Below, one piece after another: positions 5,618-54,023 of a stretch of 64,000 nt of DNA. Origin of the DNA: Streptomyces sp. DvalAA-43 (GTDB lineage: Bacteria > Actinomycetota > Actinomycetes > Streptomycetales > Streptomycetaceae); NCBI RefSeq assembly GCF_900091725.1, contig NZ_FMBW01000030.1, positions 248,001 to 312,000 of the forward strand, in the 5' to 3' direction. A model generated the notes under the pieces. That model saw only the letters and a program-made list of their open reading frames with translations. It made no database searches and was not told where the DNA came from. Within the stretch, counting starts at the first letter, position 1. The number at the start of each line of letters is the position of its first letter. Position numbers and translations under genes: made by a program.

Positions 5618-5688
5618 TCGCCGTCGTCACCGGCCGCACGGCCGCCGGGTCTCCCTCTCTCCGGAGCCTGTCGCAATAGTCATTACAC

Positions 5689-5706
5689 TTGCGCAACCTC
5701 TAAAGT
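5689..5706 (+). promoter_or_regulatory. TTGCGCAA site 1 with -10-like TAAAGT
   Basis: Palindrome TTGCGCAA (5689-5696) is followed after four bases by TAAAGT (5701-5706), 63 bases before the tatB-like start. The same palindrome occurs in four other intergenic gaps up to 11363. Confidence 0.55.
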
Positions 5707-5768
5707 ATTGATGCCGGGGCCGCCCCGGCGGCGACCGGTCACGCGACCGCGAAGGCGAGAGGTGTCGG

Positions 5769-6275
5769 ATGTTCTCCGATGTGGGACCCCTGGAACTGGC
5801 GACGCTGGCGGTACTCGCCATCCTCCTGTTCGGGCCGGACAGACTGCCCGAGTTCATCCAGAACGCGGCGGCGCTCATCCGTAAGTTCCGCGAGTTCTCC
5901 GATAACGCGAAGCAGGAGATCCGCTCCGAACTGGGCCCGGAGTTCGCCGACTTCGAGTTCGAGGACCTGCACCCGAAGACATTCGTACGCAAGCACGTAC
6001 TCGACGACGAAGGCGAAGGCGACGACGAAGGCGGAAGCAACGGCCTCGCACTCGGGCTCGGCCTCGGGCCCGGACTCGGACTCGGACTCGGACTCGACGA
6101 GATCCGCAACTCCCTCGACCCGACGGAGGAGTTGACGGAGGCTGTCGATGCGCTCCGGTCGGCGGGCGACCCCCCTCCCGAGCGCGCGGCCTCACCGACA
6201 CGGGTCAACCTGACGAAGGAATCCGGGACAGAAGCAACAGCCCGAGCACCGATCAACCACTTCGACGCCACATGA
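5769..6275 (+). CDS. tatB: TatB-like twin-arginine translocase subunit
   Basis: A 168-residue protein with the TatA/B architecture. A short N-terminal segment (FSDVGPLEL) precedes a single transmembrane helix, then the hinge FGPDRLPEF, then a charged amphipathic helix. In Tat export the TatB protein pairs with TatC to recognise folded substrates. The E/D-rich tail contains an unusual Gly-Leu alternation (about residues 96-113) encoded by repeated CTCGGA hexamers, a likely slippage hotspot. The start follows GAGAGG. A TatA homologue is encoded nearby on the other strand, but no tatC is seen, so partner assignment is inferred from family only. Confidence 0.82.
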   Translation: MFSDVGPLELATLAVLAILLFGPDRLPEFIQNAAALIRKFREFSDNAKQEIRSELGPEFADFEFEDLHPKTFVRKHVLDDEGEGDDEGGSNGLALGLGLGPGLGLGLGLDEIRNSLDPTEELTEAVDALRSAGDPPPERAASPTRVNLTKESGTEATARAPINHFDAT

Positions 6276-6316
6276 CACCGCACCCCGCCGTGACCCAACT
6301 CACGTCACTTCAATGG

Positions 6317-6334
6317 TTGCGCAATGATTAAACT
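6317..6334 (+). promoter_or_regulatory. TTGCGCAA site 2 with -10-like TAAACT
   Basis: TTGCGCAA (6317-6324), four bases, then TAAACT (6329-6334), the same spacing as site 1. The -10-like box is six bases from the ATG at 6341, which fits leaderless transcription. Confidence 0.55.
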
Positions 6335-6340
6335 GTCGTC

Positions 6341-6571
6341 ATGGACACAGGAACCCCGACGGGGTGGGAAGCGGCGGTACTTTTCGGGGGCCCCGCGGAC
6401 GGCGTGCGGATGCGGGTCGCCGACCGGCCGCGAACGATCCAGGTGACCTGCCCCTGTGAGCTGGAAGCCCCGTCGAACGGGATGCGCGCGGAGGCGCTGC
6501 ACATCTACCGTCGCGACCTGCGAGTGAAGAGCGAGCCGCTGCGGTACGGCTTCGACGGGGCCAGCCCCTGA
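6341..6571 (+). CDS. small conserved hypothetical protein
   Basis: A 76-residue soluble protein with no signal peptide or membrane segment. The GGPADGVRMRVADRP segment and the CPCELEAP pair of cysteines are the most distinctive features. The function is not recognised. The ATG has no Shine-Dalgarno sequence and lies just after a -10-like TAAACT, so leaderless expression is likely. It sits between the TatB-like and TatA-like genes and shares their TTGCGCAA promoter element. Confidence 0.6.
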   Translation: MDTGTPTGWEAAVLFGGPADGVRMRVADRPRTIQVTCPCELEAPSNGMRAEALHIYRRDLRVKSEPLRYGFDGASP

Positions 6572-6589
6572 TGGAGCGATACGCGCTAC

Positions 6590-6877
6590 TCAGCGGGCGG
6601 CGTCGCTCTCCGCCACGGAACGGGCCGACGCGACATCGCCCGGTGCCGCCCGGATGGTCCGCGGCGTCTCCTGCACCGGGGCATCCTCGGCGGGAGCGGG
6701 AGCGGCAGCGGGCTCCGCGGCGCCGTCCTGCTTCATGGCCTTGGCCTCGCTCTTGAGGATGCGCATCGACTTGCCCAGGGACCTGGCGGCCTCCGGCAGT
6801 TTCTTCGAGCCGAACAGCACGATCACCACGATCGCGACGATCAGCAGGTGCCAGGGTTCCAGTCCGTTGCGGAGCAT
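6590..6877 (-). CDS. tatA: TatA/E-like twin-arginine translocase subunit
   Basis: A 95-residue TatA-type protein that would form the protein-conducting part of the Tat system. The start at 6877 gives [13 protein letters not shown] and a single membrane helix, then the hallmark FGSKKLPE and the amphipathic helix [12 protein letters not shown]. The tail is rich in Ala, Pro and Glu. Upstream in-frame codons would add a non-homologous extension and are rejected. It is divergent from the LCP gene, with a TTGCGCAA palindrome in the shared gap. Genomes of this genus usually have another tatA beside tatC, so this may be an accessory copy. Confidence 0.88.
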
Positions 6878-6951
6878 CCCGCCCACCCCATTCTCTTCAT
6901 CCGGCAGAGGTGGGTACCGGGCGCACCACACCACCTGTAACGCTTGCTACA

Positions 6952-6959
6952 TTGCGCAA
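6952..6959. promoter_or_regulatory. TTGCGCAA site 3, divergent tatA / LCP gap
   Basis: The palindrome lies 75 bases from the tatA-like start and 66 bases from the LCP start. It is followed by CTGTACAAC, which keeps the AA step seen downstream of the other sites. Confidence 0.5.
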
Positions 6960-7024
6960 CTGTACAACCTTGCAGTGGGGCCAGACGTCCCCTTCGTATG
7001 AGGCAGACGGATGAGGGCGTACGC

Positions 7025-8572
7025 ATGACAACCAGCCACCCGGCGGCTCCACCGCGGCGCAGGCGCACGGCACCGGCGCCGCGCGAGGGCGGACGGCGCA
7101 ACGTCCCCGAAGGACGGCGCGACGTCCGCGCAGGACGACGCCGCAAACGCAGCCGGCTGCGAATAGCCCTCGCCATAGCCCTGTCCATACTCGTGCTCGG
7201 CGCAGCCGGGCTCGGCTGGATCTTCCTCGAACTGAACGGAAACATCGACACGTTCAGCGCGGACGGCATCTCCGGAGAACGCCCCGAGGCGGCGAAGGGC
7301 GCGAACGTCCTCGTCATCGGATCGGACGCGCGCACCGGCGGCAACAGCGCGCTGGGCGGCGGGGACAAGGACGACATCGGCCGCTCCGACACCGCCTTCC
7401 TGCTCCATGTCTACGCCGACGGCCGGCACGCCGTCGCCGTGTCCATTCCGCGCGACACCCTGGTCACCATCCCGCCCTGCAAACTGCCGGACGGCTCCTG
7501 GACCAAGACCCGGACCAACACCATGTTCAACGCGGCCTACTCCGTGGGCCAGACGGCCAAGGGCAGTCCCGCCTGCACCCAGAACACCGTCGAGGAACTC
7601 ACCGGGCTGCGCGTGGACCACACGGTGGTCGTCGACTTCAAGGGCTTCGCAGAGCTGACGGACGTGGTCGGCGGTGTGAAGGTGTGCCTGCCGCAGGACA
7701 TCCACCAGAAGGACCTCAACCCCAACCGCACCACTCGGGGAAAGCTCCTCTTCCGCAAGGGGGAGCAGACGGTCGCCGGTCAGAAGGCCCTGGACTACGT
7801 ACGTATCCGGCACGGCATCGGCGACGGCTCCGACATAGGCCGTATCAAGCGCCAACAGGCTTTCGTGGCCAGCCTGATCGCACGGGTGAAGAGCGACGGC
7901 CTCACCCCCACCAAGCTGCTGCCGCTCGCCGATGCCGCCACCAAGTCGATGACGGTCGACCCCGGTCTCGGCTCGGCCGACAAACTGATCTCCTTCGCGA
8001 TGTCCCTGAGAGACATCGACCTGCACAACACCAAGTTCGTCACCATCCCCTGGCGGTACGAGGGTGCTCGCGTGGCGATCGTCCAGCCGGACGCCGACGA
8101 GCTCTGGGCCGCGCTGAAGGCCGACCGGACCATCGACGGCAAGGACGCCAGCGGCAAGAAGGGCGCGGCGACGGCCTCCGCCTCACCGAGCGCCGAGGAG
8201 CCCGTCTCCGGGGACGGTATCGACGTCGCCGTCTACAACGGCACCACCACCAAGGGGCTCGCCGCACGTGCCGCAACCGCTCTCACCGACCACGGATTCA
8301 CCGTCACCGGTACGGGGAACGCGAGCACCCAGGACCACGCCGACACCGTGATCGAGTACGGGCCGGGGCAGAAGAGCCGGGCCGAGAGCGTCGCCGGACT
8401 CTTCCCCGGTGCCCGGCTGCAGTCGGGCACCGGCACGGGCATCAGCGTGATCCTGGGCCGGTCCTACCCGGCCGAGGGCCCCTCGGCCAAGGCGACCGGG
8501 GTGCCCAAGGCCGTGGCCGACGACGCCCGCTCGGCCGATGACGACCTGTGCTCCAACCTGTCGTACGGGTAG
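7025..8572 (+). CDS. LCP (LytR-CpsA-Psr) family protein with LytR C-terminal domain
   Basis: A 515-residue membrane-anchored protein that would transfer polymer chains such as wall teichoic acid, teichuronic acid or glycan onto peptidoglycan. A basic cytoplasmic head of about 45 residues is followed by one membrane helix (about 48-70). The extracytoplasmic LCP core has GSDARTGG, the Asp/Arg motif SIPRDTLV, and a later VRIRHGIGDGSDIGRIKRQQ segment. A Ser/Ala linker leads to a LytR_C domain beginning at VAVYNGTTTKGLA (about residue 400). ATG 7025 follows GAGGGCG. The divergent gap with tatA holds a TTGCGCAA site. Confidence 0.9.
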   Translation: MTTSHPAAPPRRRRTAPAPREGGRRNVPEGRRDVRAGRRRKRSRLRIALAIALSILVLGAAGLGWIFLELNGNIDTFSADGISGERPEAAKGANVLVIGSDARTGGNSALGGGDKDDIGRSDTAFLLHVYADGRHAVAVSIPRDTLVTIPPCKLPDGSWTKTRTNTMFNAAYSVGQTAKGSPACTQNTVEELTGLRVDHTVVVDFKGFAELTDVVGGVKVCLPQDIHQKDLNPNRTTRGKLLFRKGEQTVAGQKALDYVRIRHGIGDGSDIGRIKRQQAFVASLIARVKSDGLTPTKLLPLADAATKSMTVDPGLGSADKLISFAMSLRDIDLHNTKFVTIPWRYEGARVAIVQPDADELWAALKADRTIDGKDASGKKGAATASASPSAEEPVSGDGIDVAVYNGTTTKGLAARAATALTDHGFTVTGTGNASTQDHADTVIEYGPGQKSRAESVAGLFPGARLQSGTGTGISVILGRSYPAEGPSAKATGVPKAVADDARSADDDLCSNLSYG

Positions 8573-8665
8573 GGCAGCCCGACAGGTGGTCGCGCCCACC
8601 GAGCGGGCGCGGGCCCGGCCGGGGGCAGGTCGCCGCCCGGCCCGGGGCAGGTCGTCGCGCAGCCT

Positions 8666-8753
8666 GGGCAGGTCGTCTCCCGCCCCAGGGCCAGCAGTCT
8701 CCCGCCCCTGGGCAGGTCGTCTCCCGCCTCAGGGCCGGCCGTCTCCCGGCTAC
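8666..8753. repeat. two 44-bp imperfect tandem repeats
   Basis: GGGCAGGTCGTCTCCCGCC starts at 8666 and again at 8710. Each copy is followed by a CAGGGCCnGCnGTCTCCCG segment. Further partial copies of GGGGCAGGTCG lie at 8623-8655. The array fills the gap between the convergent LCP and TerD-like genes and ends inside the TerD stop region. Confidence 0.6.
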
Positions 8754-9334
8754 TTGCTGACGGCGAAGCGCATCAGGGCGTGCTCGCTGCCCTGCTTGAT
8801 CTTCCCGGTCGTATTGATCACTTCGAGCTTCCAGCTGTCGCCCACGCGCACGGCCTTGGCCACGGCGCACCCGTTGTCCTGGGTGAGCAGGCTCGGCCAG
8901 ATGTCGGCGACCTGCTGGGTGCTGCCCCCGGTGGCGTCGTACACCTTGAAGCTGATGTTGCGTGCCTTCTGGAAGGAGCTGCCCTTCTTGTAGGCGGCGG
9001 CGACGAACACGATCGACGTGATCTGGGACGGAATCCGCGCGAACTCGACGGTCACCGTCTCGTCGTCCCCGTCTCCGCGCCCGGTCTGGTTGTCGCCGCT
9101 GTGCACCAGCGAACCATTGCCCATCGGGTCGAGGGAGTCGAGACCGGCGAGGCGCACCGGGTCTCCGCCCTGCATCGCGACGGCGATCAGGTCGAGGTCG
9201 GTTCCGGACTTGCGGCGGAGTATCCCCATCACCCCGCCGCTGCTGCCGGCGGTGGGGTCCCAGGACACTCCGATGGACAGATGGGTCACTCCGTCCAGAT
9301 CCGCCGGGCCGTCTTCCTTCGTGAGCGTAATCAT
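8750..9334 (-). CDS. TerD-family protein
   Basis: A 194-residue cytoplasmic protein of the TerD (stress, tellurite-resistance, Ca2+-binding) family. The start at 9334 follows AAAGGA. Recognisable blocks are HLSIGVSWDP near the N-terminus, DLDLIAVAMQ, then VHSGDNQTGRGDGDDE with the acidic residues that bind calcium in this family, and FARIPSQITSIVFVAA. The C-terminal ADIWPSLLTQDNGCAVAKA departs from typical TerD, so it may be a diverged paralogue. A second, longer TerD protein lies two genes away. Confidence 0.8.
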   Translation of the reverse strand: MITLTKEDGPADLDGVTHLSIGVSWDPTAGSSGGVMGILRRKSGTDLDLIAVAMQGGDPVRLAGLDSLDPMGNGSLVHSGDNQTGRGDGDDETVTVEFARIPSQITSIVFVAAAYKKGSSFQKARNISFKVYDATGGSTQQVADIWPSLLTQDNGCAVAKAVRVGDSWKLEVINTTGKIKQGSEHALMRFAVSK

Positions 9335-9452
9335 GTATGAATCATCCTTTTTGACGACGGGCGCGACACATAAGAGTGTGCCTGGGCCCTCATGGTCCTT
9401 CACACCCCTCCCCGTCACACCGGAATTCGCGCCCCGCCACCTTCAGCGCGAC

Positions 9453-9482
9453 GGCGTGGAGTGCGATGGCGTGGAGTGCGAT
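9453..9482. repeat. two exact 15-bp tandem units
   Basis: GGCGTGGAGTGCGAT at 9453-9467 and 9468-9482, in the gap between the TerD-family gene and the ArsR gene. Confidence 0.6.
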
Positions 9483-9549
9483 GTCCGGCGCCGACACGAC
9501 TACGGGCCCGGACAACATCTCCGGGCCCGCTCCCACGATCCCGAAGCTG

Positions 9550-9912
9550 TCAGGCACCGGCCCCGCGCAGCCGGCCCACCGGTCCCGACGCCGTCTCGGC
9601 ACGTGCGGCCAGCTGACCGACCATGAGCCGGACCACGGTCACGACATCGGGATCGTCGACGTAGTAGACCTGGCGCCGGCCGTCGCGGCGGGAGCGTACG
9701 AGACCGGCGAGCCGCAGTTTCGTCAGGTGCTGGCTGACCGCGGGCAGGGCGCCGCCCACCCGGGCCGCGAGGTGGGTGACATCGCTCTCGCCCTGCGCCA
9801 GCGCCCACATGATGTGCAGCCGCGCCGAGGACGCCAGCAACCCGAACGCGGCGGCTGCCTCGGCCAGCACCTCGGCGGACGGATCCTCCGGCCCACCAAC
9901 GTCTGCCGCCAC
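9550..9912 (-). CDS. ArsR-family winged-helix regulator
   Basis: A 120-residue regulator. GTG 9912 is preceded by GGGAGCGGG. The core is the ArsR winged helix, ESDVTHLAARVGGALPAVS followed by QHLTKLRLAGLVRSRRDGR, then the wing QVYYVDDPDV. The usual alpha-3 metal motif ELCVCDL is absent (the equivalent region reads GESDVTHLA), so arsenic-type sensing is unlikely. The C-terminal helix DPDVVTVVRLMVGQL may still form an alpha-5 dimer-interface site. The regulated gene is not evident; both neighbours are TerD-family genes on the same strand. Confidence 0.85.
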   Translation of the reverse strand: MAADVGGPEDPSAEVLAEAAAAFGLLASSARLHIMWALAQGESDVTHLAARVGGALPAVSQHLTKLRLAGLVRSRRDGRRQVYYVDDPDVVTVVRLMVGQLAARAETASGPVGRLRGAGA

Positions 9913-10042
9913 AACCCGCTCCCGTCCCGTCCCGCGTCCTGGCCACCGTCCCGTGCCCCGGCCCAGTCTAGGTGTCCGGCACCGGGCGCCCGTGCGGGCG
10001 CACGCGACTCGGACCGGCAGGTCAGCCCGCAGTCCTCAGTCC

Positions 10043-11176
10043 TCAGTCCTCGTAATAGTTGTTCACGATCACATCCGGCTCGTCGTCGCTGAACGCCTCA
10101 TTGAGCAGCGCACCTCCGACCAGCCCGGCCGCACCGGCACCGATGAGCGCCCCCGTACCGAATCTGCGACCGCCCTGCTGGTCCTGGTGGTCCGCGTGCG
10201 GGGCCGGATACCCCTGCTGCGAATAGCCCTGCTGCGGGTACCCCTGCTGCGGATAGCTGGGCTGGGGCGGTGTGTAGTACGGCGGAAGGGTGGTCTGCAC
10301 CCGTTGGGCGCAGCCGCCGCATACCTGGATCTGCCGGGGCACACCCCACTGCGGGGACCACGTCACGGGCGTCGTACCGGGGCCATGGCTGGGATCGAAG
10401 AAGCAGGTCATGGGAGAACTCCCTGTCGGTTGTGATGAATTGGCACCCATCGGCGACTGCGGAACGACAACGGTCGGCGTCGGCACAGGAGGCGCGCTCG
10501 GTACCGGAGGCGCAGTCGGTACCGGAGGCACAGTCGGCGCGTACGTATTAACGCCCCCGCCATCCGCGACAACGGAGGCCGGAGCAGGGGACTTCGCCCC
10601 CGGCGCCTCGCGCAGGACGTCGACGCCGTAGTCGGTGGCGATGCCCGCGAGCCCGGAGACATACCCCTGCCCCACCGCGCGGAACTTCCACTCCGCACCG
10701 CGCCGGTACAACTCACCGAAGACCATCGCGGTTTCCACCGACAGACTCCCGGCCACCAGGTCGTAGCGCGCGAGCTCGGCGCCCCCTTCCTGGTCGGTCA
10801 CACGGATGTGAGCACCGCGCAACTGCCCGAAGTTCTGGCCGCGGGCCGCACCCTCGTAGATGGACACCGGAAAGACGATCTTGGCGACATCGCCCGGAAC
10901 CCTGGCGAGATCGACAAGAACCTGTTCCTGATCCCCGACAACACCACTGCTTCCGCTTCCGGAATGGCGGACCGACCCGTCCGGACTGCTCAGGTTGTTG
11001 AAGAAGACGAAGTGCTGGTCGGACAGGACCTTCCCCGCCCGGTTGCACAGCAGCGCGCTGGCGTCCAGCTCGCAGCCGGCCCCCACCTGCCATCCCAGCC
11101 CGACCGTCACGGCAGCCAGGCCGGGAGCCTGTTTGCTCAATGAGACGTTTCCGCCCTTGGTCAGGGGCACACCCAT
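10043..11176 (-). CDS. TerD-family protein with Pro-rich linker, zinc-ribbon-like motif and Gly-zipper tail
   Basis: A 377-residue multidomain protein. The start at 11176 follows GGAGGAAG. Residues 1 to about 190 are a TerD domain (VTVGLGWQV, DASALL, FFNNLSSPDGSVRHSG, and VSIYEGAARGQNFGQL). A proline/valine linker rich in PPVPTAPPVP follows. Next come FFDPSHGPG and CGGC, which may make a small zinc-binding knuckle, then QQGY-type repeats, and a Gly-rich segment GALIGAGAAGLVGG that could insert in membrane. The acidic tail ends in NNYYED. This domain order suggests a membrane-tethered stress protein. Two TTGCGCAA sites lie in the divergent gap with glsB. Confidence 0.85.
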   Translation of the reverse strand: MGVPLTKGGNVSLSKQAPGLAAVTVGLGWQVGAGCELDASALLCNRAGKVLSDQHFVFFNNLSSPDGSVRHSGSGSSGVVGDQEQVLVDLARVPGDVAKIVFPVSIYEGAARGQNFGQLRGAHIRVTDQEGGAELARYDLVAGSLSVETAMVFGELYRRGAEWKFRAVGQGYVSGLAGIATDYGVDVLREAPGAKSPAPASVVADGGGVNTYAPTVPPVPTAPPVPSAPPVPTPTVVVPQSPMGANSSQPTGSSPMTCFFDPSHGPGTTPVTWSPQWGVPRQIQVCGGCAQRVQTTLPPYYTPPQPSYPQQGYPQQGYSQQGYPAPHADHQDQQGGRRFGTGALIGAGAAGLVGGALLNEAFSDDEPDVIVNNYYED

Positions 11177-11259
11177 GAACTTCCTCCGCAGTCGCTCCGG
11201 CGTACGCCGTTCGGCGCTCGTCGTACTCAAACGCGGTCCGGAGACCTTGAGTTCCACAG

Positions 11260-11277
11260 TTGCGCAATATCTTAAAT
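11260..11277 (+). promoter_or_regulatory. TTGCGCAA site 4 with TTAAAT
   Basis: TTGCGCAA (11260-11267), four bases, then TTAAAT (11272-11277). It sits in the 256-base divergent gap between the long TerD-family gene and the GlsB gene. Confidence 0.5.
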
Positions 11278-11355
11278 GAAGATTCCGTCACCGCCCCCAC
11301 CCCGGGGAACACGCAACCACCGACACCGCGCCCGCGTCCTAGAAATATCCATAGC

Positions 11356-11363
11356 TTGCGCAA
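11356..11363. promoter_or_regulatory. TTGCGCAA site 5, before glsB-like gene
   Basis: The palindrome lies 70 bases before the GlsB start and is followed by CCGAGCAAC, so a second CAAC half-site sits nine bases after the first. Confidence 0.5.
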
Positions 11364-11432
11364 CCGAGCAACATACGACGGCCGGCCGAACGGGAGACGC
11401 TCCCGGACACGGCCGCACAAGGAGACAACGAC

Positions 11433-22980: not shown

Positions 22981-24195
22981 GTGTCCCGCCATTCATCTTC
23001 CGTCTCCGTCGCTCGCGCCACCGCGCCCGTGCTCCTCCTCGCGGCCCTCACCGGCTGCTCGGTCACGGGTGGTGGCAGCGACTCCGCGGATGCGAAGGAG
23101 GGGCCTTCCTTCACCGTCGCCGCGGCAGGCGACGTCCTGATCCACCCCCAGCTGACCGAGCAGGGACGCAAGGACGCCGCGGCGGCCGGGGACAAGACCG
23201 GGAAGAAGATCGACTTCCATGCGCTGATGGCCGGGGTCAAGCCCGTGATCAGCAAGGCCGATCTGGCGATCTGCCACTTCGAGCCGGTCGCGGGCAAGCC
23301 GCAGGGACCGTTCGAGGGCTTCCCCGACTTCATCGTGCCGCCGCAGATCACCACGGCGCTCAAGGACGTCGGCTACGACACCTGCTCGACGGCCTCGAAC
23401 CACACCCTCGACCACGGCGCCTCCGGCGTACGGAACACGCTCGACGCACTCGACGGGGCCGGGCTCAAGCACACCGGGTCCGCGCGCAGCAGCGCCGAGG
23501 CCGCCAAGCCGCTGATCATGGACGTCAAGGGCGTGAAGGTCGCCCAGCTGTCCTACGCCTTCGGCTTCAACGGGCGGAAGGTCCCGGCCGACAAGCCGTG
23601 GCTGACCAACGAGACCGACTTCAAGCGGATCGCCGCCGCAGAGAAGGCCGCCCGCAAGGCCGGTGCCGAGGTGGTGATCCTCAGCATCCACTGGGGCCGC
23701 GAGCACCATCCGGACCCGAGCAACGGGCAGCTGAAGCTGGCCCGCAGGCTGGCACGGGAGACCGGGATCAACCTGGTGATCGGCCACCACGCCCATGTGG
23801 TGCAGCCGATGGAGAAGATCGGCAACACGTGGATCGCGTACGGCCTGGGCAATCAGGTGGCGCGGCACGACGTGCCCTCGGGACTGACCGAGGAAGGCGT
23901 CATCGGCTGGTTCGAGTTCCACAAACGCGGTGACACCTGGGACGTGGACGCCCGGTACGTACCGACGCTGCTGACGATTCCGCCGGATGCCGACGGCAAC
24001 GGCACACAGGATCCCGATGCGGCGGTGAAGGACCACCGGCTGGTGGACCTGGCGACCTCGCTGGAGGACGCCGACAAGCTGCCGCCCACGGAACGGGCCA
24101 GATACCGGATGGCCTTCGAGCGGACCCAGGGCACGCTGCTCAACCGGGGCGCCGTCAAGGACGGACTGAAACCCCTGAAGGGCCTGCCGGAGTGA
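22981..24195 (+). CDS. capA: CapA/PgsA-family lipoprotein, poly-gamma-glutamate synthesis
   Basis: A 404-residue lipoprotein whose signal ends in the lipobox LTGC (about residues 22-25). The mature part is a CapA-type calcineurin-like domain: AAAGDVLIHPQ at the start, TASNHTLDHGASG, then VILSIHWGREHHPDPS, VIGHHAHVVQP and AYGLGNQVARH. In Bacillus the CapA/PgsA protein works outside the membrane with PgsB and PgsC to make or export poly-gamma-glutamate. GTG 22981 is the only start that preserves a full lipoprotein signal. It heads the locus with the HAMP protein, pgsB, pgsC and the NlpC/P60 gene. Confidence 0.88.
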   Translation: MSRHSSSVSVARATAPVLLLAALTGCSVTGGGSDSADAKEGPSFTVAAAGDVLIHPQLTEQGRKDAAAAGDKTGKKIDFHALMAGVKPVISKADLAICHFEPVAGKPQGPFEGFPDFIVPPQITTALKDVGYDTCSTASNHTLDHGASGVRNTLDALDGAGLKHTGSARSSAEAAKPLIMDVKGVKVAQLSYAFGFNGRKVPADKPWLTNETDFKRIAAAEKAARKAGAEVVILSIHWGREHHPDPSNGQLKLARRLARETGINLVIGHHAHVVQPMEKIGNTWIAYGLGNQVARHDVPSGLTEEGVIGWFEFHKRGDTWDVDARYVPTLLTIPPDADGNGTQDPDAAVKDHRLVDLATSLEDADKLPPTERARYRMAFERTQGTLLNRGAVKDGLKPLKGLPE

Positions 24196-24267
24196 GCCCG
24201 GGAACCAGACCGGGATCGGGTCCGGGATCAGGGCCGGGGACCAGACCGGGATCAAGACCGGGAGTGA
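24196..24267. repeat. six 12-bp tandem repeats directly after capA
   Basis: Units start at 24196, 24208, 24220, 24232, 24244 and 24256, with consensus GnCCGGGATCnn. The array begins at the base after the capA stop codon. Confidence 0.7.
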
Positions 24268-24666
24268 ACCCCGGTCCCGGGGTGTGCACGGGAGTGAGTA
24301 CGGAAGCGCGTACGGGAGCGGCTACGGGGCCGGGTCCCATCGGCTGACCCCTGCGGACCGGCGACCTGCCGGACCCGACCGCACTCTCCGCCCGAGCCGC
24401 ACACTCCGCCCGCTTCACCGACGGCGCCCGCACCGCCACCTCCACCGCTTCCACCACCTCCGGCCCGGCCGGGACGCCCGGCTGCCGGGCTGCCCGGACG
24501 GCTCGGGGAGGGGCCGGAGACGGCAGTGGTTCCGTCCGGATGCCGGAAGTCGGAAAGCTCACACTCACCACGCTCCGTACAACCTTCCGCAAAGCTTTTA
24601 TGTCCAGCAAACGGCTGTGCCTCGTTCAGCACGCCGGAACCGAGCAGACAGTCAAAGGGGAACACG
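24268..24666. other. leader region of the HAMP-pgsB-pgsC genes
   Basis: No gene is recognised. The segment contains a 29-base stretch at 24412-24440 identical to 29412-29440 inside the NlpC/P60 gene. A less GC-rich stretch around 24580-24610 (CGCAAAGCTTTTATGTCC) probably holds the promoter. Confidence 0.5.
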
Positions 24667-26967
24667 ATGGCCGCTTCGTCCTCGAAGCGCCGGCACAAGG
24701 TCCGCCGGCGGGCCGATATGTCGCTTCTGGGTGGCATACGTCCCCCCATCGCGGTGCTCTCCGCGCTCCTGCTCTCCCTGGCGGGCATCACCGCCCTCGG
24801 GCTGGGCAAGGCGAGCCAGGACTCCGTACCGAAGGCGGTGCTGACCTCTCAGCAGCACTTCGCCGAGGACGGCGCCGTCACGATGCGCGCCTCGATCGAC
24901 GAGAGCGTCACCGACCTGACCCGCACCGCGGGCCTCTTCAACGCGGGTGACCCGGCCACGCCCGACGCCGTACTCGACAAGATCGGCAGCGTCTACCAGA
25001 AGTGGACGGGCACCGCCGTGGTCGAGATCGAGTCCGGCCGGATGCTCGCCGCCCGCGGCGAGAACGTCCCCGTCACCGCCATCGACACCGGCAAGCTCGC
25101 CGAGAAGGACGGGCTCAGCCCGCGCATCGTGCGGCTCCAGAACGGCGAGAGCAGGCTGCTCGCCTTCGCCCTGCTGTCCTGGCCGGACCGGCCGCAGCAG
25201 TTGCTGATCGCCTCCAACAGCCTCCGCTTCCCCGGCGTCAGCCGCGGCCAGTTCCGCTCGATCGCCGTCGTCGACACCACGGGGCACATCCTCAGCCGCG
25301 ACGGCGTCCAGGAGCCGGAGCAGGTCAAGACCGACAAGCAGCGCGAGGACGCCAAGCGCTCCGCCAAGCAGCTGACCGCCTTCGCCAAGACGGCCGCGAC
25401 CAAGACCGCACAGCACCCGCTCAAGGCCAAGGAGCCCGGCTCCGGCGGCTTCCCCGGGGTCAGCGGCAGCCTGCGCGGCAACACCTTCCGCGGTGACCGC
25501 GCCGTCGCCGGGTACGCCGCGCTCGCCGGCCCGCAGCCCGGCGAAGGCACCGTCGCCACCTCCCTCGGGCTCACCGTCGTCGCCATGGTCGACGTCGCCG
25601 AGGACCCCACCCGCGTCGCGGGCCCCTTCTTCGGCCTGGTCTCCGCCGCCGCCCTGCTGCTCATCGGCGCACTCGCGGTGGCGCTGCTGCTCGGCACCGT
25701 GCAGCGGCCGCTCCTGAAGCTGTTCCTGGAGAGCCGGCGGCTGACCCGGGGCGATCTGACCCGCCCGGTCTCCGTCCCCAGATTCGGTGAGACGGCCCGC
25801 ATCGGGCGCGCCCTGGAGCGTCTGCGCCGCCAGCTCCTCGGCGAACCGGCCGATGCCGGGGCCGCCGCGTCCGACGCCGGGCGCCCGGGGCGCCGGAGCC
25901 GGCTCGGCAGCCGCGCGCTCATCGTCATCTGCGGCGTCCTCCTGCTGGCCTGGTCCGCACCGATGCTGCTGCTCTTCAACCGCGCCGACTCGACCGTGGC
26001 CGTACCCGAGCAGGTCGTCAGCGACCAGCGCGAGCGCACCCACACCATCTCCGACCGGGTCCGGCGCGCGCTCAACGAGGGCCACGCCGACCTGGTGTCC
26101 GTCGCCTCGCTGATCGGCAACCGCACCTCCCCCGACGACATGGAGAAGGTCCTGGAGCGCACCCGCATCGAGCACCAGCGCTACCGCTCGATCTACGTAC
26201 GCTCCGCCGACGGCACCGTCCAGGCCCGCTCCGGCGAGAAGCCGCACGCGCTGCCCGGCGGCTCCAAGGACAAGCCGCTCACCCAGCCCATCACCGTGCT
26301 GAACAAGTCCGGCAAGGAGCCCTCCGTCGCCGGGTACGCGGAGATCCCGGGCCGGAACGGCGCCATGGTGATCGGCGAGTTCCGGATCGACTTCATCAAC
26401 GGGCTGCTCAAGCGCCCCGGGCTCGGCCAGATCCGGGTGGTCGACAGCGAGCACCGGGTCATCGGCGGCAACTCCGGCTACCTCGCCTTCGACTCCCTGC
26501 CGAAGCGGCTGGACGAGCTGGTCTCCGGCACGAACCAGCGGGTCGGCATGAACGCCCCCGCGGGCTCGGTCGTCTACCGCGACGGCGACGGCGTGCAGAT
26601 CTCCGCCGCCTCGCCCTTCGCCGGTGGCGGCGCCGCGAAGCAGCTCCGCTGGACGGTGGTCAGCTGGCAGCCCGCCTCCGGCCTCGCCATCCCCGAGTAC
26701 AGCCTGCAGAACCGCACCGTGCTCGCCGGTCTGCTCGGCATCACCGCCGCCGTGGCCTGCCTCGGCTGGCTGTACATCGTCGTCGTACGTCCGCTGCGCG
26801 AACTGGCCGGTCAGGCCGAATCGCTGGCCGACGGCGACCGGCGCACCGTGCTCTTCCCGCACCACCACGACGAGGTCGGCGCGGTCACCCGCAGTCTGGA
26901 AATTGTCCGGCAGCAGCTCCAGGAGCAGCGCAAACGCGACAGCGCTCCCCTGGTCGGAAGGAACTGA
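24667..26967 (+). CDS. four-TM sensor-like membrane protein with two HAMP domains, no kinase
   Basis: A 766-residue protein. ATG 24667 follows AAGGGGAA. It has two modules of the same plan: a membrane helix (about 24-42), an extracytoplasmic domain of about 275 residues, a second helix (about 320-345) and a HAMP-like linker (LTRGDLTRPVSVPRFGETARIG). A third helix (about 418-440), another extracytoplasmic domain, a fourth helix (about 681-705) and a terminal HAMP (LRELAGQAESLADGD onwards) follow. There is no histidine kinase, GGDEF or phosphatase domain after the last HAMP. Seven bases before pgsB, it probably senses or organises polymer assembly. Confidence 0.8.
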   Translation: MAASSSKRRHKVRRRADMSLLGGIRPPIAVLSALLLSLAGITALGLGKASQDSVPKAVLTSQQHFAEDGAVTMRASIDESVTDLTRTAGLFNAGDPATPDAVLDKIGSVYQKWTGTAVVEIESGRMLAARGENVPVTAIDTGKLAEKDGLSPRIVRLQNGESRLLAFALLSWPDRPQQLLIASNSLRFPGVSRGQFRSIAVVDTTGHILSRDGVQEPEQVKTDKQREDAKRSAKQLTAFAKTAATKTAQHPLKAKEPGSGGFPGVSGSLRGNTFRGDRAVAGYAALAGPQPGEGTVATSLGLTVVAMVDVAEDPTRVAGPFFGLVSAAALLLIGALAVALLLGTVQRPLLKLFLESRRLTRGDLTRPVSVPRFGETARIGRALERLRRQLLGEPADAGAAASDAGRPGRRSRLGSRALIVICGVLLLAWSAPMLLLFNRADSTVAVPEQVVSDQRERTHTISDRVRRALNEGHADLVSVASLIGNRTSPDDMEKVLERTRIEHQRYRSIYVRSADGTVQARSGEKPHALPGGSKDKPLTQPITVLNKSGKEPSVAGYAEIPGRNGAMVIGEFRIDFINGLLKRPGLGQIRVVDSEHRVIGGNSGYLAFDSLPKRLDELVSGTNQRVGMNAPAGSVVYRDGDGVQISAASPFAGGGAAKQLRWTVVSWQPASGLAIPEYSLQNRTVLAGLLGITAAVACLGWLYIVVVRPLRELAGQAESLADGDRRTVLFPHHHDEVGAVTRSLEIVRQQLQEQRKRDSAPLVGRN

Positions 26968-26973
26968 ACGGCC

Positions 26974-28653
26974 GTGCTCTTCCTCTACGGCGTGCTCGTC
27001 GTGTGCTGTGTGATCCTCCTGGTCTCCGGCATCGTCGAACAGCGGCGCCACTTCACCAATCTGGAGCGCATACCCACCCGGGTGCTGATCAACGGCATCC
27101 GCGGCAAGAGCTCCATCACCCGCCTCTGCGCGGGCGCCCTGCGCGGCGGCGACCTGGTCACCGTGGCCAAGACGACCGGCACCGCGGCCCGCTTCATCCA
27201 CCCCGACGCCACCGAGGAGCCGGTCTACCGCAAGTTCGGCATCGCCAACGTCGTCGAGCAGATCGGCATCGTGCGGCGCGCGGCCTCCTACAACCCGGAC
27301 GCGCTGGTCATCGAGTGCATGGCGGTCATGCCGGCGCTCCAGGAGATCAACCAGTCCAAGCTGATCCGGTCGACGATCGGCGTGCTGTGCAACGTACGTG
27401 AGGACCACCTCGCCGAGATGGGCCCCACGCTCGACGACGTGGCCCGCTCGCTGTGCCGCTCCATGCCGGAGGGCGGCATCTGTGTCACCGCCGAGCAGGA
27501 CCGCTTCCACATCCTCCAGGAGGAGGCCGACGCCCGGGACTGCAAGCTGATCTACGCCGACCCGGAGACGGTGAGCGACGAGGAGCTGCGCGGCTTCAGC
27601 TGGTTCACCTTCAAGGAGAACGTGGCGATCGCGCTGACGGTCGCCGAGCTCCTCGGCGTGGACCGGGAGACCGCGCTCCAGGGCATGTACGACGCCCCGC
27701 CGGACCCGGGTGTCCTCTCGGTCGAGCGGTACCGCACCCACGACGACAAGCGGCTGCGCTTCGCCAACGTCTTCGCGGCGAACGACCCCGAGTCGACGCT
27801 GATGAACATCAACCAGCTGCTCGACCTCGGCGCGATCGAGCGCCCGCTGAACGTCGTGATCAACTGCCGCCCGGACCGGGTCGAGCGCAACGGCCAGATG
27901 GGGCAGATCATCCCCGATCTCCAGCCGGAGAAGGTGTTCGTGATCGGTCACCCGGCGAAGAGCGCCATCGACGCGATCCCCTCGGAGTGGCGCCACACCG
28001 CGGTCGACCTCGGCGGCGACAAGCGCGACCCCGAGGAGTTCATGAACGAGCTGCTCGGGCACCTCGGGCCGGAGTCCTCGCTGGTCGCGATCGGCAACAT
28101 CCACGGGCAGGGCGAACTGCTCCTGGAGCACCTCGCCGAACTGCCCGCCGACGAGACGCCGGACGAGATCCCGGACGGCCCGTCGGGCGGGGCGTCGACC
28201 GGTGCTCCCGCGCAGGCCACCTCGCAGGCGCCCGTACACACCGACGCCCCGGCCGGCAACCCGGCCGACGACGGCCCGGCCACCGCTGCCCTCCCGCTGG
28301 TCCCGGCCCAGCAGCAGCAGCCGCGGCACGACGAGACCCTGGCGCTCCCCCGCTACACCCCGCGCCTCGACCCGTACCAGCCCTACCCCGAGGCGTACGA
28401 GGCGCGGTACCAGCAGACCGCGCACCTGGCCGCCCCCGTGCAGCCGCAGTCACACCAGCAGCCTCACTCGCCCCAGCCCCAGCACGGGCACCCACAGCCG
28501 CAGGATCACCAGGCGCCCCCGCGGCAGCAGACCCCGCAGCACCAGAGTCCGGAAGACCCGGCCGAACCGCCCGCACCCCATGTCCGCGGCATGTTCGAGC
28601 CGGTCCGGCCGCCCGCCCCGGCCCAGCAGGAATACCCAGGAGAACCCCGTTGA
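26974..28653 (+). CDS. pgsB: PgsB/CapB poly-gamma-glutamate synthase with Pro/Gln-rich extension
   Basis: A 559-residue protein. One N-terminal membrane helix is followed by a Mur-ligase-like amide ligase core with the ATP-binding loop LINGIRGKSSITRL (about residues 38-51), then KTTGTAARFIHPD and NVREDHLAEMGP. PgsB activates glutamate carboxyl groups and extends the chain. The core ends near residue 395, matching the usual length. The remaining 165 residues are a low-complexity tail rich in Pro, Gln, His and Ala, absent from Bacillus PgsB. GTG start; its TGA overlaps the TTG of pgsC. Confidence 0.92.
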   Translation: MLFLYGVLVVCCVILLVSGIVEQRRHFTNLERIPTRVLINGIRGKSSITRLCAGALRGGDLVTVAKTTGTAARFIHPDATEEPVYRKFGIANVVEQIGIVRRAASYNPDALVIECMAVMPALQEINQSKLIRSTIGVLCNVREDHLAEMGPTLDDVARSLCRSMPEGGICVTAEQDRFHILQEEADARDCKLIYADPETVSDEELRGFSWFTFKENVAIALTVAELLGVDRETALQGMYDAPPDPGVLSVERYRTHDDKRLRFANVFAANDPESTLMNINQLLDLGAIERPLNVVINCRPDRVERNGQMGQIIPDLQPEKVFVIGHPAKSAIDAIPSEWRHTAVDLGGDKRDPEEFMNELLGHLGPESSLVAIGNIHGQGELLLEHLAELPADETPDEIPDGPSGGASTGAPAQATSQAPVHTDAPAGNPADDGPATAALPLVPAQQQQPRHDETLALPRYTPRLDPYQPYPEAYEARYQQTAHLAAPVQPQSHQQPHSPQPQHGHPQPQDHQAPPRQQTPQHQSPEDPAEPPAPHVRGMFEPVRPPAPAQQEYPGEPR

Positions 28654-29132
28654 TCCCCTCCGTCCTCACCCCTGAGATTGCCGCCATTGGCATCGCCCTG
28701 GGGCTGATGTTCTCGCTGGTCTGCTATCTGACGACCAACCTCTCCCCCGGCGGGATGATCACCCCGGGCTGGCTGGCGCTCACCCTCGTCGAGGACCTCC
28801 AGCGCGCGGCCATGGTGGTCGGCGTGACCGTTCTGACGTACGTGGCGGTGCTCGGCCTCCAGAAGGTCGTGATCCTCTACGGCAAGCGGCTGTTCTCCAC
28901 GGTCGTCCTCACCGGTGTCATCTTCCAGGCGACGCTGATGATCGTGCTGTCGATCGAGTTCCCGCTGATGTACACCAACCAGACCCTGGGCTTCATCGTC
29001 CCCGGCCTGATCGCGTACCAGCTCGTCCGCCAGCCCAAGGGCGCGACCCTGCTGGCGACCGGCTCGGTGACGCTCATGGCCTATGTCGTTCTCACCGCAG
29101 GCATCCTGCTCGGCGCGCTGCCGACCGTCTGA
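28650..29132 (+). CDS. pgsC: PgsC/CapC poly-gamma-glutamate biosynthesis membrane protein
   Basis: A 160-residue membrane protein with about five helices. The start is TTG 28650, overlapping the pgsB stop (TTGA) and preceded by AGGAGA. Family landmarks are IAIGIALGLMFSLVCYLTT, NLSPGGMITPGWLAL and, at the end, PGLIAYQLVRQPKG. PgsC forms the membrane part of the PgsBCA complex for polymer elongation and export. Translational coupling with pgsB argues for equimolar production. Confidence 0.9.
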   Translation: MIPSVLTPEIAAIGIALGLMFSLVCYLTTNLSPGGMITPGWLALTLVEDLQRAAMVVGVTVLTYVAVLGLQKVVILYGKRLFSTVVLTGVIFQATLMIVLSIEFPLMYTNQTLGFIVPGLIAYQLVRQPKGATLLATGSVTLMAYVVLTAGILLGALPTV

Positions 29133-29158
29133 CCCGACCCTCCGGAGCTGACTGACTC

Positions 29159-30235
29159 ATGAGTCCCAAGACCAAGCGCCGCCCCCGTCAGGCGCTGCAC
29201 GCCGTCACGGTGACCGCTCTGCTCGCGGGCAGCGCCTACCTCACCGTCGAGCTGCGCAAGGACGAACAGGCGAAGGCCCCCGCCGTGCAGGCCGTCACCG
29301 ACAACCCGGCGCTGAAGTCGTCGAACCTGAAGAGCGGCAAACAGCGCTGGGAGCGGCTGCGCAACCCGTCCCGCACCCTGCTGCGCGGCACCGACGGCGA
29401 GATCCTCGCCAGCTTCACCGACGGCGCCCGCACCGCCACCCTCACCGGCCCCAGCCGCACCTTCACCGAGCCCAGCACCACCGCGTCCAAGGTCGTCACC
29501 GAGGACTGGGTGCGGCTGATGCCGTACCAGTGGAAGAAGGGCTCCGAGAACGAGAAGTGGTTCAAGGACTGGTTCAAGGAGTTCTTCGGCAGCGAGGAGG
29601 ACGACCTCTTCGCCACCGCCTTCCAGTACGTCGCCGACGCCCCGGTCAAGAAGGACGACGAGGGGGTCTCCTACGCCGGTGACGCCAACTTCGGTCCGCT
29701 CAACCCGAACGGCAGCGAGGGCAACGACCTGCGGCTGGAGGAGTCCGACTTCTTCGACTACCTCGGCATCCCGTACACCTTCCGCAACGGCACGACGATG
29801 CAGCCCCGTACCGAGCGCGCCCGCTCCATGGACTGCTCGGGCTTCATCCGCACGGTGTTCGGCTACCGGGCCCGCTACCCGCTCATGGCCACCGACGCGT
29901 CCGGCGACGGCCTGCCGCGTACCGCCAACGGGATGGCCCGCTCGCACCGCGGCACGGACGTGATCGCCCTCAAGGGCATCACACCGGCCGACCGGCCGAA
30001 GAACATCGATGTGCTGCAACCCGGTGACCTGGTCTTCTTCAAGCTCGACCAGCGCACCAAGGAGCGTCTCGACCACGTCGGCATGTTCCTCGGGCACGAC
30101 ACCGACGGCCACAAGATCTTCATCTCCAGCCGCGAGGAAGCCAATGGCCCGACCATCGGCGACAAGGGCGGCACGTCCCGTCTCGACGGCAACGGCTACT
30201 ACGCGGCGACGCTGCGCAGCGCGAAGCGCCTGTAA
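29159..30235 (+). CDS. exported NlpC/P60-family enzyme of the capsule locus
   Basis: A 358-residue protein with an N-terminal signal or anchor (about residues 13-31). It has an SH3-like or regulatory middle region with many aromatic and charged residues (KWFKDWFKEFFGSEEDD), and a C-terminal NlpC/P60 domain. Catalytic Cys226 is in SMDCSGFI and His306 in LDHVGMFLG. NlpC/P60 enzymes cleave gamma-D-glutamyl bonds, so this one may cut poly-gamma-glutamate or attach or remodel it at the wall rather than act as an ordinary muropeptidase. It lies 26 bases after pgsC and the operon ends in a double hairpin. Confidence 0.85.
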   Translation: MSPKTKRRPRQALHAVTVTALLAGSAYLTVELRKDEQAKAPAVQAVTDNPALKSSNLKSGKQRWERLRNPSRTLLRGTDGEILASFTDGARTATLTGPSRTFTEPSTTASKVVTEDWVRLMPYQWKKGSENEKWFKDWFKEFFGSEEDDLFATAFQYVADAPVKKDDEGVSYAGDANFGPLNPNGSEGNDLRLEESDFFDYLGIPYTFRNGTTMQPRTERARSMDCSGFIRTVFGYRARYPLMATDASGDGLPRTANGMARSHRGTDVIALKGITPADRPKNIDVLQPGDLVFFKLDQRTKERLDHVGMFLGHDTDGHKIFISSREEANGPTIGDKGGTSRLDGNGYYAATLRSAKRL

Positions 30236-36242: not shown

Positions 36243-37112
36243 GTGCCGACCAACGTCAATCCCACCGTCAGACGACGCCGGTTGGGCCAGGAATTGCGCC
36301 GCCTGCGCGAGCTCAAGGGCATGACGGCCGAGGAGGTGGCGGAGCGACTGCTCGTCTCGCAGTCGAAGATCAGCCGCCTGGAGAACGGCCGCCGGTCCAT
36401 CAGCCAGCGCGACGTCCGCGATCTCTGCGGGGTGTACGAGGTCGAGGATCACCGGATCGTCGACTCACTGATGCAGATGGCCAAGGACTCGCGCCAGCAG
36501 GGCTGGTGGCACGCCTTCGGCGACATCCCGTACAGCGTCTACATCGGGCTGGAGACGGATGCCGAATCGCTGCGGGTGTACGAACCCCAGGTGGTCCCCG
36601 GCCTGCTGCAGACCCGGAGCTACGCCGAGGCCCTGATCAACGGAGCGCTGCCGGAGGCCCCGCCGGGCGACATCGACAAGCGCGTCAGCGTCCGGGCCCG
36701 CCGCCAGGACCGGATCACCGATCCGGAGCATCCGCTACGGCTGTGGGCGGTCATCGACGAGTCGGCGCTGCGCCGGATGGTCGGCAGCAAGCAGGTGATG
36801 ATCGAACAGCTGGAGCAGTTGGTCGAGCTGTCCCTCCTGCCGCATGTGACCGTGCAGGTGCTGCCGTTCGAGATGGGCGCGCACCCCGGTATCAACGGGC
36901 AGTACGCCATTCTGGAATTCCCGGACGCCGCCGACTCCAGCGTCGTCTATATCGAGGGCGTCACCAGCGACCTCTATCTGGAGAAAGCCCACGATGTGCA
37001 GCGGTACAGCGTCATGTACGAGCACCTGCGGGCACAGGCGCTGAATGTGGAGCAGACCCGGCAGTTCATCACCGAGATCGTGAAGGAATACACCCGGCTC
37101 AGCAACGGCTGA
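36243..37112 (+). CDS. XRE-family regulator with DUF5753-type sensor domain
   Basis: A 289-residue regulator. The start is GTG 36243, after GGAGG. The N-terminal helix-turn-helix (about residues 15-70) reads MTAEEVAERLLVSQSKISR and then LENGRR. The C-terminal DUF5753 domain includes PGLLQTRSYAEALI, RRQDRIT and VQVLPFEMGAHPGINGQY. Such regulators work with a small DUF397 protein, here the next gene. Its position beside a D-Ala-D-Ala carboxypeptidase and GPP34 gene is reminiscent of the Streptomyces coelicolor pair Scr1/Scr2, which influences antibiotic production; that orthology is from memory and unverified. Confidence 0.9.
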   Translation: MPTNVNPTVRRRRLGQELRRLRELKGMTAEEVAERLLVSQSKISRLENGRRSISQRDVRDLCGVYEVEDHRIVDSLMQMAKDSRQQGWWHAFGDIPYSVYIGLETDAESLRVYEPQVVPGLLQTRSYAEALINGALPEAPPGDIDKRVSVRARRQDRITDPEHPLRLWAVIDESALRRMVGSKQVMIEQLEQLVELSLLPHVTVQVLPFEMGAHPGINGQYAILEFPDAADSSVVYIEGVTSDLYLEKAHDVQRYSVMYEHLRAQALNVEQTRQFITEIVKEYTRLSNG

Positions 37113-37377
37113 GCACGGACCGAGCTTCGGCTGAGCGCCGGCCGAGCACCCCACGCGGCCCGGTCCGCAAAGTCCGGATTGTGGAAAATGAAGTGATGTC
37201 ACAAGGCAGGCGGCGGTAAGGTACACCGCCGTCTGCCCCAAGCGGAAGATCAGATTGGTATATGCCACTCGGTCGAGTGAACGCCCCCTTCGCTCAAGGG
37301 ACTTGACGAGTAGCGTCGATCACGCCAACCGGAACGCTGTTGGTGTCATTCACGCGACTCTTTGAACCGGAGTGAAC

Positions 37378-37584
37378 ATGGCCATTCGTCAGGGTGCTAC
37401 GGACAAGTGGACGAAGTCCTCGTATTCCGGGGGCAACGGCGCCTGCGTCGAAGTCAAGTCCCCTCTTGCGCAGGCAATTGCGGTGCGTGACTCGAAGGCT
37501 CCCGAGGGCCCTTCGATCACCTTCGTCCCCGCCGCATGGAACGCATTCGTACGCGATGTCGGCCAGGACGCCGTCAGCGCCTGA
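37378..37584 (+). CDS. DUF397 protein, partner of the XRE regulator
   Basis: A 68-residue protein with the two DUF397 signatures, WTKSSYSGGNGACVEVK and IAVRDSKAPEGPSI, ending FVPAAWNAFVRDV. The ATG at 37378 is preferred over the GTG two codons earlier; CGGAG precedes both. DUF397 proteins bind and antagonise their cognate XRE regulator. The 265-base gap from the XRE stop suggests its own promoter rather than strict co-transcription. Confidence 0.92.
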   Translation: MAIRQGATDKWTKSSYSGGNGACVEVKSPLAQAIAVRDSKAPEGPSITFVPAAWNAFVRDVGQDAVSA

Positions 37585-53560: not shown

Positions 53561-53781
53561 GAGGCGGCGACGAACATCCCTCCATGGACGGCCCGTTCAC
53601 CTTGCTCGCACCCAGGGGCCGTGGCGAGGCTGTGTACACGGAGATTCAGGGGCATGCCCGCCTCATCACCGACCCAGATGAGGTCCGTCTGTTCAGCGAG
53701 CGCTATGGGATCGTGCGGGCGCAGGCTCTCACCCCGAGGGAGTCCCTGATGCTCATCAAGAAGATGCTGGGAGAGCTATGA
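53560..53781 (+). pseudogene. C-terminal fragment of an XRE/DUF5753 regulator
   Basis: Only the end of the DUF5753 domain survives: MDGPFTLLAPRGRGEAVYTE, then ARLITDPDEVRLFSERYGIV, then PRESLMLIKKML. There is no helix-turn-helix upstream; homology starts near 53560. Its TGA overlaps the ATG of the next DUF397 gene (ATGA), the normal arrangement, so the 3' end of the operon is intact while the regulator has lost its DNA-binding half. Confidence 0.72.
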
Positions 53782-54023
53782 ACAGCGAGCAACTGCGCTG
53801 GTTCAAGAGCAGTTACAGCGGTGACGAAGGCGGAACCTGCGTCGAGGTCGCCTACAACTGGCGCAAGTCCAACCACAGCAGCGGCGAAGGCGGCAACTGC
53901 ATCGAGGTCGCAAGTTGCGCCGCTGCCGTCCACATCCGCGACTCCAAGAACGTCCAGGGGCCCCGACTCGACGTCGCCCCCGGCGCCTGGGCGGCGTTCG
54001 TTTCGTACGCGCAGCAGGGCTGA
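53778..54023 (+). CDS. DUF397 protein with a duplicated N-terminal motif
   Basis: An 81-residue protein. It has two consecutive copies of the DUF397 first motif, WFKSSYSGDEGGTCVEV and WRKSNHSSGEGGNCIEV, but only one of the second motif, VHIRDSKNVQGPRL. The normal single-copy protein is about 65 residues, so this is an internal duplication. It is orphaned, because its cognate XRE regulator at 53560-53781 lacks its N-terminal half. Confidence 0.88.
   Translation: MNSEQLRWFKSSYSGDEGGTCVEVAYNWRKSNHSSGEGGNCIEVASCAAAVHIRDSKNVQGPRLDVAPGAWAAFVSYAQQG

Follow-up and report, generated by a model that had tools for sequence, protein, structure and literature searches.

The subject here is a 64-kb stretch of DNA from Streptomyces sp. 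DvalAA-43 (contig NZ_FMBW01000030.1, positions 248,001 to 312,000; hereafter the window, with positions counted from its first letter), in which copies of the palindromic 8-mer TTGCGCAA stand before genes for Tat-type, LCP, TerD and GlsB proteins. With good confidence, these palindromes are read as operators of one ArsR-family regulator, which most likely represses this envelope set by excluding RNA polymerase. The ArsR homodimer would bind TTS-n5-TTGC-GCAA-n5-SAA and thereby cover either the -35 element (AAC) of sigma-E-like LCP and TerD promoters or the -10 element of promoters such as that of p76, a 76-aa protein. Bound ArsR would keep RNA polymerase away, and its release would turn on the set, namely LCP (wall-polymer attachment), Tat export, TerD and GlsB. 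Computation supplies the motif, its conservation, its target genes, its co-occurrence with ArsR and its promoter register.

By exact word count the window contains six copies of TTGCGCAA, five of which fall within 5.7 kb (5689-11363); the mean expectation for 64 kb is 0.35, and none of 100 shuffles reached six. An initial annotation of this DNA had listed five copies, at 5689, 6317, 6952, 11260 and 11356, in gaps before TatB-like, p76, TatA/LCP, TerD and GlsB genes, and both the positions and the placement are accurate for all five. The AA step that it described after each palindrome is present on the plus strand six bases past the 8-mer in every case, and the -10-like strings lie four bases past it at three sites (TAAAGT at 5689, TAAACT at 6317, TTAAAT at 11260). 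The sixth copy, at 51450, is found inside a stretch that scores as coding. Genome-wide, the bare word occurs 45 times, compared with 67 for the word reversed, and codon use marks 20 of these 45 as coding. The 8-mer was therefore rejected as the functional unit. The annotation had made its regulon depend on a higher density between genes than within them. This condition goes partly against the bare 8-mer, and it is an extended 24-bp palindrome that carries the signal.

This 24-bp palindrome, with TTGCGCAA as its core, is the unit to consider. Aligning the five window sites reveals its outer arms, a TT pair at -12/-11 and an AA pair at +11/+12. In the window, TTN6TTGCGCAAN6AA matches exactly at 6309-6332, 6944-6967 and 11252-11275. 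The form TTSn5TTGCGCAAn5MAA is found in this genome only at 6309, at 6944 and in a second TatA/LCP cluster (C71:129519), with one mismatch at 11252 and 11348. A pair of TTGCGCAA words 14 bp apart elsewhere in the genome (L005; G000:C10:54334 and 54348) has no operator outer arms and is possibly an unrelated site. Sites were scored with a position weight matrix (PWM) built from 62 unique sites of fetched regions. The operators of the window are:

5681-5704, unstranded: degenerate operator before the TatB-like gene; core 5689-5696 exact, left outer TT missing, PWM 11.6
6309-6332, plus strand: p76 operator; exact extended match, PWM 33.1, overlapping the -10-like TAAACT at 6329-6334
6944-6967, unstranded: operator between the divergent TatA (minus) and LCP (plus) genes; exact extended match, PWM 36.0
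11252-11275, unstranded: operator between TerD (minus) and GlsB (plus); exact TTN6TTGCGCAAN6AA, PWM 30.8
11348-11371, unstranded: second operator, closer to GlsB; one mismatch, PWM 22.1

The extended pattern is widespread in the genus. Across 150 Streptomyces genomes, TTN6TTGCGCAAN6AA was matched 106 times, in 52 of them, and the reversed pattern three times. When 197 genomes were drawn from the order, 16 of them outside the window's genus, the motif was matched in 70, all of them in that genus. Regulon size varies widely: in one genome (G215; L352-L357) 13 exact operators were counted along with four hits of ArsR type, and some of its sites stand beside rodA/ftsW-like genes.

The target genes were determined in a main set of 60 regions (7.5-19 kb) of other genomes together with a paralogous cluster of the window's own genome (L044), the first 20 kb of the window and L061, with genes called by a simple codon-use caller. 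As these regions were picked for holding a site or an ArsR gene, the proportions describe the regulon and not all copies of a family. All 93 sites with a PWM score of at least 20 lie outside called genes (beyond 30 bp of an end), in sequence that is 84% coding; 87 of them face a gene start no more than 450 bp away, and 81 face one or two of eight families, i.e., TatA (36), LCP (30), TerD (20), p76 (8), GlsB (7), a membrane protein termed c22 (4), ArsR (4) and TatB-like (2). Counted from the genes, a site of at least 14 within 420 bp upstream is found for TatA in 35/38, LCP in 31/33, TerD in 21/30, p76 in 9/14, GlsB in 6/8, c22 in 4/5 and TatB-like in 3/4 cases; the three TatB-like genes called in fetched regions other than the window each have a site of 16.5 or more. 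The expectation that the sites would be conserved before the same families in other Streptomyces is thus borne out. Rarer neighbours of the sites include genes that we take to be rodA/ftsW-like, with a small secreted-type gene (L108, L120), an SLT-domain protein (L160; 18.3 bits, a weak label), an alkaline phosphatase (L164) and a TatC-like gene (L118).

The regulator itself is probably encoded among its targets. A small winged helix-turn-helix (wHTH) protein recurs at operator loci, and the window holds a copy:

9550-9912, minus strand: ArsR/SmtB-family wHTH protein, proposed operator binder; HTH_5 37 bits, NF033788 77.4, co-occurrence with the operator

Its ArsR-type winged HTH is recognized by PF01022 (HTH_5; 37.0 bits, gathering 22) and PF12840 (27.6 bits, gathering 27), and the NF033788 score compares with a cut-off of 55. 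A profile search matched it to the solved SmtB, NmtR and CzrA chains and to 6o8l-type chains, presumably SqrR. The initial annotation had postulated a dedicated regulator for the Tat/LCP/TerD/GlsB set and had reported that none was matched; the first idea gains comparative support, and the second is superseded by this candidate. Its identity as the binder, its action as a dimer and its role as a repressor are predictions from sequence and comparison. Classical ArsR/SmtB metalloregulators bind their metal through an alpha-3 Cys motif or an alpha-5 D-x-H...H-x2-E motif. No Cys occurs among the invariant or nearly invariant columns of this subfamily (A1), and the SmtB-type alpha-5 His pair was not found in the profile alignment, where the ligands that we take to be H106 and H117 align with D89 (variable) and Q100. 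Since this ligand set is absent, the protein is filed by its domain as ArsR-family and not as a metalloregulator.

The named genes of the window cluster, other than ArsR, are:

5769-6275, plus strand: TatB-like protein; PF02416, NF002377 108 bits (cut-off 96)
6341-6571, plus strand: p76, 76-aa protein; family-less in Pfam (0.001) and NCBIfam (0.01)
6590-6877, minus strand: second TatA-type protein; PF02416, NF001854 98.6 bits (cut-off 72)
7025-8572, plus strand: LCP-family glycopolymer transferase with LytR_C; PF03816, PF13399; start set at ATG 7025
8750-9334, minus strand: short TerD-domain protein, downstream of ArsR; PF02342 64.6 bits
10043-11176, minus strand: long TerD-domain protein; PF02342 232.5 bits
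11433-11699, plus strand: GlsB/Transgly_assoc small protein; PF04226 30.8 bits (cut-off 25.3)

No site was called by the PWM at the start of the short TerD gene. Relatives of p76 are present in 20 of 150 genomes, the window genome counted. The second ArsR copy of the genome belongs to another cluster (L044; G000:C71:120000-139000) containing TerD, TatA, LCP and ArsR genes, the last beside a magnesium-translocating P-type ATPase (MgtA). At position 9520 of that cluster (C71:129519) the 24-mer of 6944-6967 recurs identically, and the window cluster, which has no MgtA alongside, appears to be its paralogue.

How the operator could act is suggested by its position relative to promoter elements, of which three are read in the window beside the TAAACT of p76:

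5701-5706: -10-like TAAAGT of the TatB-like gene
6966-6989, plus strand: sigma-E-like LCP promoter; AAC 6966-6968, N17, CGTC 6986-6989
11230-11255, minus strand: sigma-E-like TerD promoter; GGAAC 11251-11255, N17, CGTT 11230-11233, a sequence reading

Both the LCP and the TerD promoters appear to combine a -35 AAC with a -10 CGTY 17-18 bp apart, and the AA of the LCP -35 is the right arm of the operator at 6944-6967. This register was counted on 483 oriented sites, unique by sequence and each read both ways, which were drawn from the main set, 80 named ArsR loci and further fetched regions. CGTC or CGTT starts 17 bp past the arm's AAC register at 45 sites and 18 bp past it at 22, whereas the average offset, peak included, has 5.1; AAC itself is present in 61 of these 67 peak sites. 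The AAC-N17/18-CGTY spacing is that of the sigma-E targets in passages of PMC6767563, while passages of PMC10771440 give spacers of mostly 18 bp under that paper's own definition. The arrangement at p76 is of another kind: the operator arm forms the start of the TAAAnT -10, whose window copy (6329-6334) sits six bases before the ATG at 6341, so a leaderless transcript may be formed. Similar layouts are seen in other species, and at TatB-like genes the dyad likewise overlaps a TAAAnT -10. What the initial annotation envisaged as an unusual promoter class is better explained by an operator superimposed on ordinary elements, either a sigma-E-like -35 or a TAAAnT -10.

Covering the -35 at some promoters and the spacer or -10 at others would fit a repressor. 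An ArsR protein that binds the same sites and activates in a class-II-like manner over the -35 is unlikely: in its favour, the operator centre would lie near -43 at LCP and TerD if these promoters are read as sigma-E-like; against it, at p76 the centre would lie at about -20, inside the spacer, where repression fits better.

Co-occurrence supports ArsR as the protein acting on these operators. The threshold for an ArsR orthologue, 119 bits or more (the next row scoring 97), was fixed before replication in new genomes. Among the first 150 Streptomyces genomes, 52 have the motif, 50 an ArsR orthologue and 49 both (Fisher p 1e-34); in 175 new genomes the counts are 62, 62 and 59 (Fisher p 6e-39), both p values treating as independent species that are not so. 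Genomes without the orthologue seldom carry the motif (3/100 in the first set; 3/113 in the new one, 16 outside the genus included). The misses counted in this way include a genome in which ArsR survives as a decayed relic next to its usual neighbours (G080), one whose ArsR scores 112.6 bits, under the preset 119, and is followed by MgtA (G304), and one in which the ArsR frame runs into N (G321). In G120, a site lies 62 bp upstream of a 45%-identical ArsR homologue, which is encoded on a short piece of contig. A separate autoregulated family around this homologue was considered and rejected, as only the query was a close match and the next row reached 102 bits (47%); the better rows of that search were mostly orthologues already found.

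Sites are also frequent around ArsR genes. At 80 named loci, the best 80 of 425 orthologues in a sample that shares species with the first set, a site of at least 20 is present in 72, compared with a mean of 0.36 loci and a maximum of 27 for 100 permuted palindromic PWMs. In 22 of the 80, a site of at least 14 lies within 320 bp upstream of ArsR itself. Beyond Streptomycetaceae, one genus of another family gave ArsR hits of 107 to 118 bits in seven genomes, and in all five loci fetched TCRAn4TTGCGCAAn4TTGA stands upstream of ArsR (first arm TCAA in three, TCGA in two). MgtA follows ArsR in four of these five loci, and no TatA, LCP, TerD, GlsB or p76 gene was called in any of them. At class level, eight ArsR loci of other families score at least 119 bits, one of which (L375) ends at the ArsR start; a near-match lies just upstream of ArsR in three of the seven readable ones (L371, L372, L374), with the exact core only in L372, and four have none. 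No site of 8 or more was found at 13 listed ArsR loci of 98 to 114 bits. Likewise, none lies near the gene in 14 loci of a neighbouring ArsR subfamily (L298-L309, L311, L312), although weak hits occur in two of them at a distance of over 1 kb; many of these genes stand beside a transporter-like gene.

Several observations weigh against ArsR as the operator-binding repressor. The degenerate site at 5681-5704 is the weakest of the five in the window, and eight of the 80 named loci have no site in their stored flanks. A site within 420 bp upstream was found for only five of the 47 ArsR genes called in the main set, which makes autoregulation a minority case in Streptomyces; of nine Streptomyces orthologues read with 1.5 kb flanks, two have a site. 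The sites of the other-family genus score 6.5 to 11.4, have TC instead of TT in the outer arm, represent a single lineage and lie within a promoter block conserved more widely. Two genomes keep strong p76 operators without an ArsR orthologue (G005, 34.9, at L295:8554; G246, 29.5, at L342:7019). Conversely, G214 and G269 have ArsR and no site of at least 12 in 15 and 14 kb, respectively, and G028 and G317 have ArsR with only weak sites. Co-occurrence is in part linkage, as ArsR is often in the same cluster, and a control with TatA was uninformative since ordinary TatA scores alike.

Some of these observations would suit another, more widespread regulator that binds the operators while ArsR merely shares the gene cluster, in particular the p76 operators of G005 and G246 and the 42 of 47 main-set ArsR promoters that have no site. 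This explanation is quite unlikely given the rarity of the motif in genomes without the orthologue, the site before the diverged ArsR of G120, and the other-family genus, where the core stands upstream of ArsR and no other target family was called nearby. That the palindrome is an intrinsic promoter feature, serving an ECF sigma factor as spacer or as context of the -35 and involving neither repressor nor activator, is highly improbable: the AAC-N17/18-CGTY register beside many sites does resemble published sigma-E promoters (passages of PMC6767563), yet one sigma factor cannot explain a dyad that overlaps a TAAAnT -10 at p76 and TatB-like genes, and the exact pattern is missing from 98 of 150 Streptomyces genomes.

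As for the signal to which an ArsR repressor would respond, it is probably not a soft metal. The MgtA and MgtC neighbours of ArsR, together with the lack of a conserved Cys or SmtB-type ligand set, suggest Mg2+. Of the 47 ArsR genes in the main set, 33 are followed on the same strand by the ATPase; the window copy is among the other 14. This frequent pairing with a magnesium pump suggests that Mg2+ supply and cell-wall upkeep are under joint control. Three ATPases were assigned to the MgtA Mg2+ type by TIGR01524 (cut-off 610.75), with 717.7 bits in L044, 668.5 in L146 and 989.6 in L347, and those of other loci were labelled by BLAST only. In L347, which belongs to another family, ArsR-MgtA has MgtC near by, as well as an Nramp gene preceded by an M-box riboswitch, and in L373 MgtC adjoins ArsR. 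The M-box, an Mg2+ riboswitch, is found at L347:7545-7722 on the minus strand (125.5 bits, Rfam). A riboswitch as the real regulator was rejected, since of the four loci scanned L044, L146 and L160 gave no Rfam match and L347 this single M-box. Envelope stress, the signal named in the initial annotation, is plausible, and Mg2+ is indicated at least as strongly by the neighbouring genes.

A wider scenario can be proposed tentatively, and is rather doubtful as a whole. A metal-ligand-free ArsR repressor may have arisen in an Mg2+-uptake operon. In Streptomyces it would then have been co-opted to place a further gate on envelope promoters of sigma-E type, and its targets (wall-polymer attachment, a second Tat set, TerD) would be opened by Mg2+ or membrane state in addition to sigma-E. 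According to passages of PMC6767563, sigE mutants require high Mg2+, and the link between Mg2+ and the envelope is therefore directly testable.

The window has other genes of note. Capsule or poly-gamma-glutamate-type genes occupy 22993-30235, with PGA_cap at 23029-24195, PgsB at 26974-28653 (TIGR04012, 382 bits) and CapC at 28650-29132. Genes of WhiJ/BldB type are also present, with an HTH-DUF5753 regulator and its DUF397 partner at 36243-37584 and a second DUF397 gene, in two matched stretches, at 53778-54023.

Among the titles, abstract openings and passages covered by literature searches on the 8-mer and on ArsR together with TerD, LCP or MgtA, none describes this regulon. The family is known; what sets this system apart is a palindrome not met in those searches, the unusual envelope targets and an ArsR-domain regulator without the classical metal ligands. 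For about one third of the sampled Streptomyces (52/150), the analysis offers testable candidates for the regulator, the operator and the targets, namely LCP, accessory Tat, TerD and GlsB genes. If the proposal is true, the overlapping of operator and promoter would link Mg2+ transport with the envelope-stress response, and the ArsR proteins would gain a subfamily whose signal is probably not a soft metal.

Among known systems, the S. coelicolor sigma-E envelope-stress regulon is similar in its AAC-N17/18-CGTY promoters and LCP targets, as given in passages of PMC6767563. It differs in that the 24-bp palindrome is not described in those passages, and the terms TerD, TatA and SCO3767 are absent from the main text of that paper. 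WhiJ/BldB (XRE-DUF397) proteins are likewise Streptomyces regulators, with such genes in this very window. They were set aside as the regulator because WhiJ9, the one whose site was compared, uses direct repeats (CGXXCTCAAC in passages of PMC10294661), in contrast to the TTGCGCAA palindrome. The present system shares with the ArsR/SmtB family (SmtB, NmtR, CzrA, SqrR) the wHTH, a palindrome over promoter-like elements and frequent linkage to a P-type ATPase. Unlike the classical members, its targets are envelope, Tat and TerD genes instead of metal efflux, and the linked ATPase is of the Mg2+-translocating type. In enterobacteria, the two-component system PhoP/PhoQ couples remodelling of the envelope to MgtA-mediated Mg2+ uptake. 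Mg2+ uptake and the envelope are common to both, whereas a one-component ArsR-type protein would take the regulatory role here; by analogy, and if the proposal is true, it would represent a Gram-positive counterpart of the PhoPQ logic.

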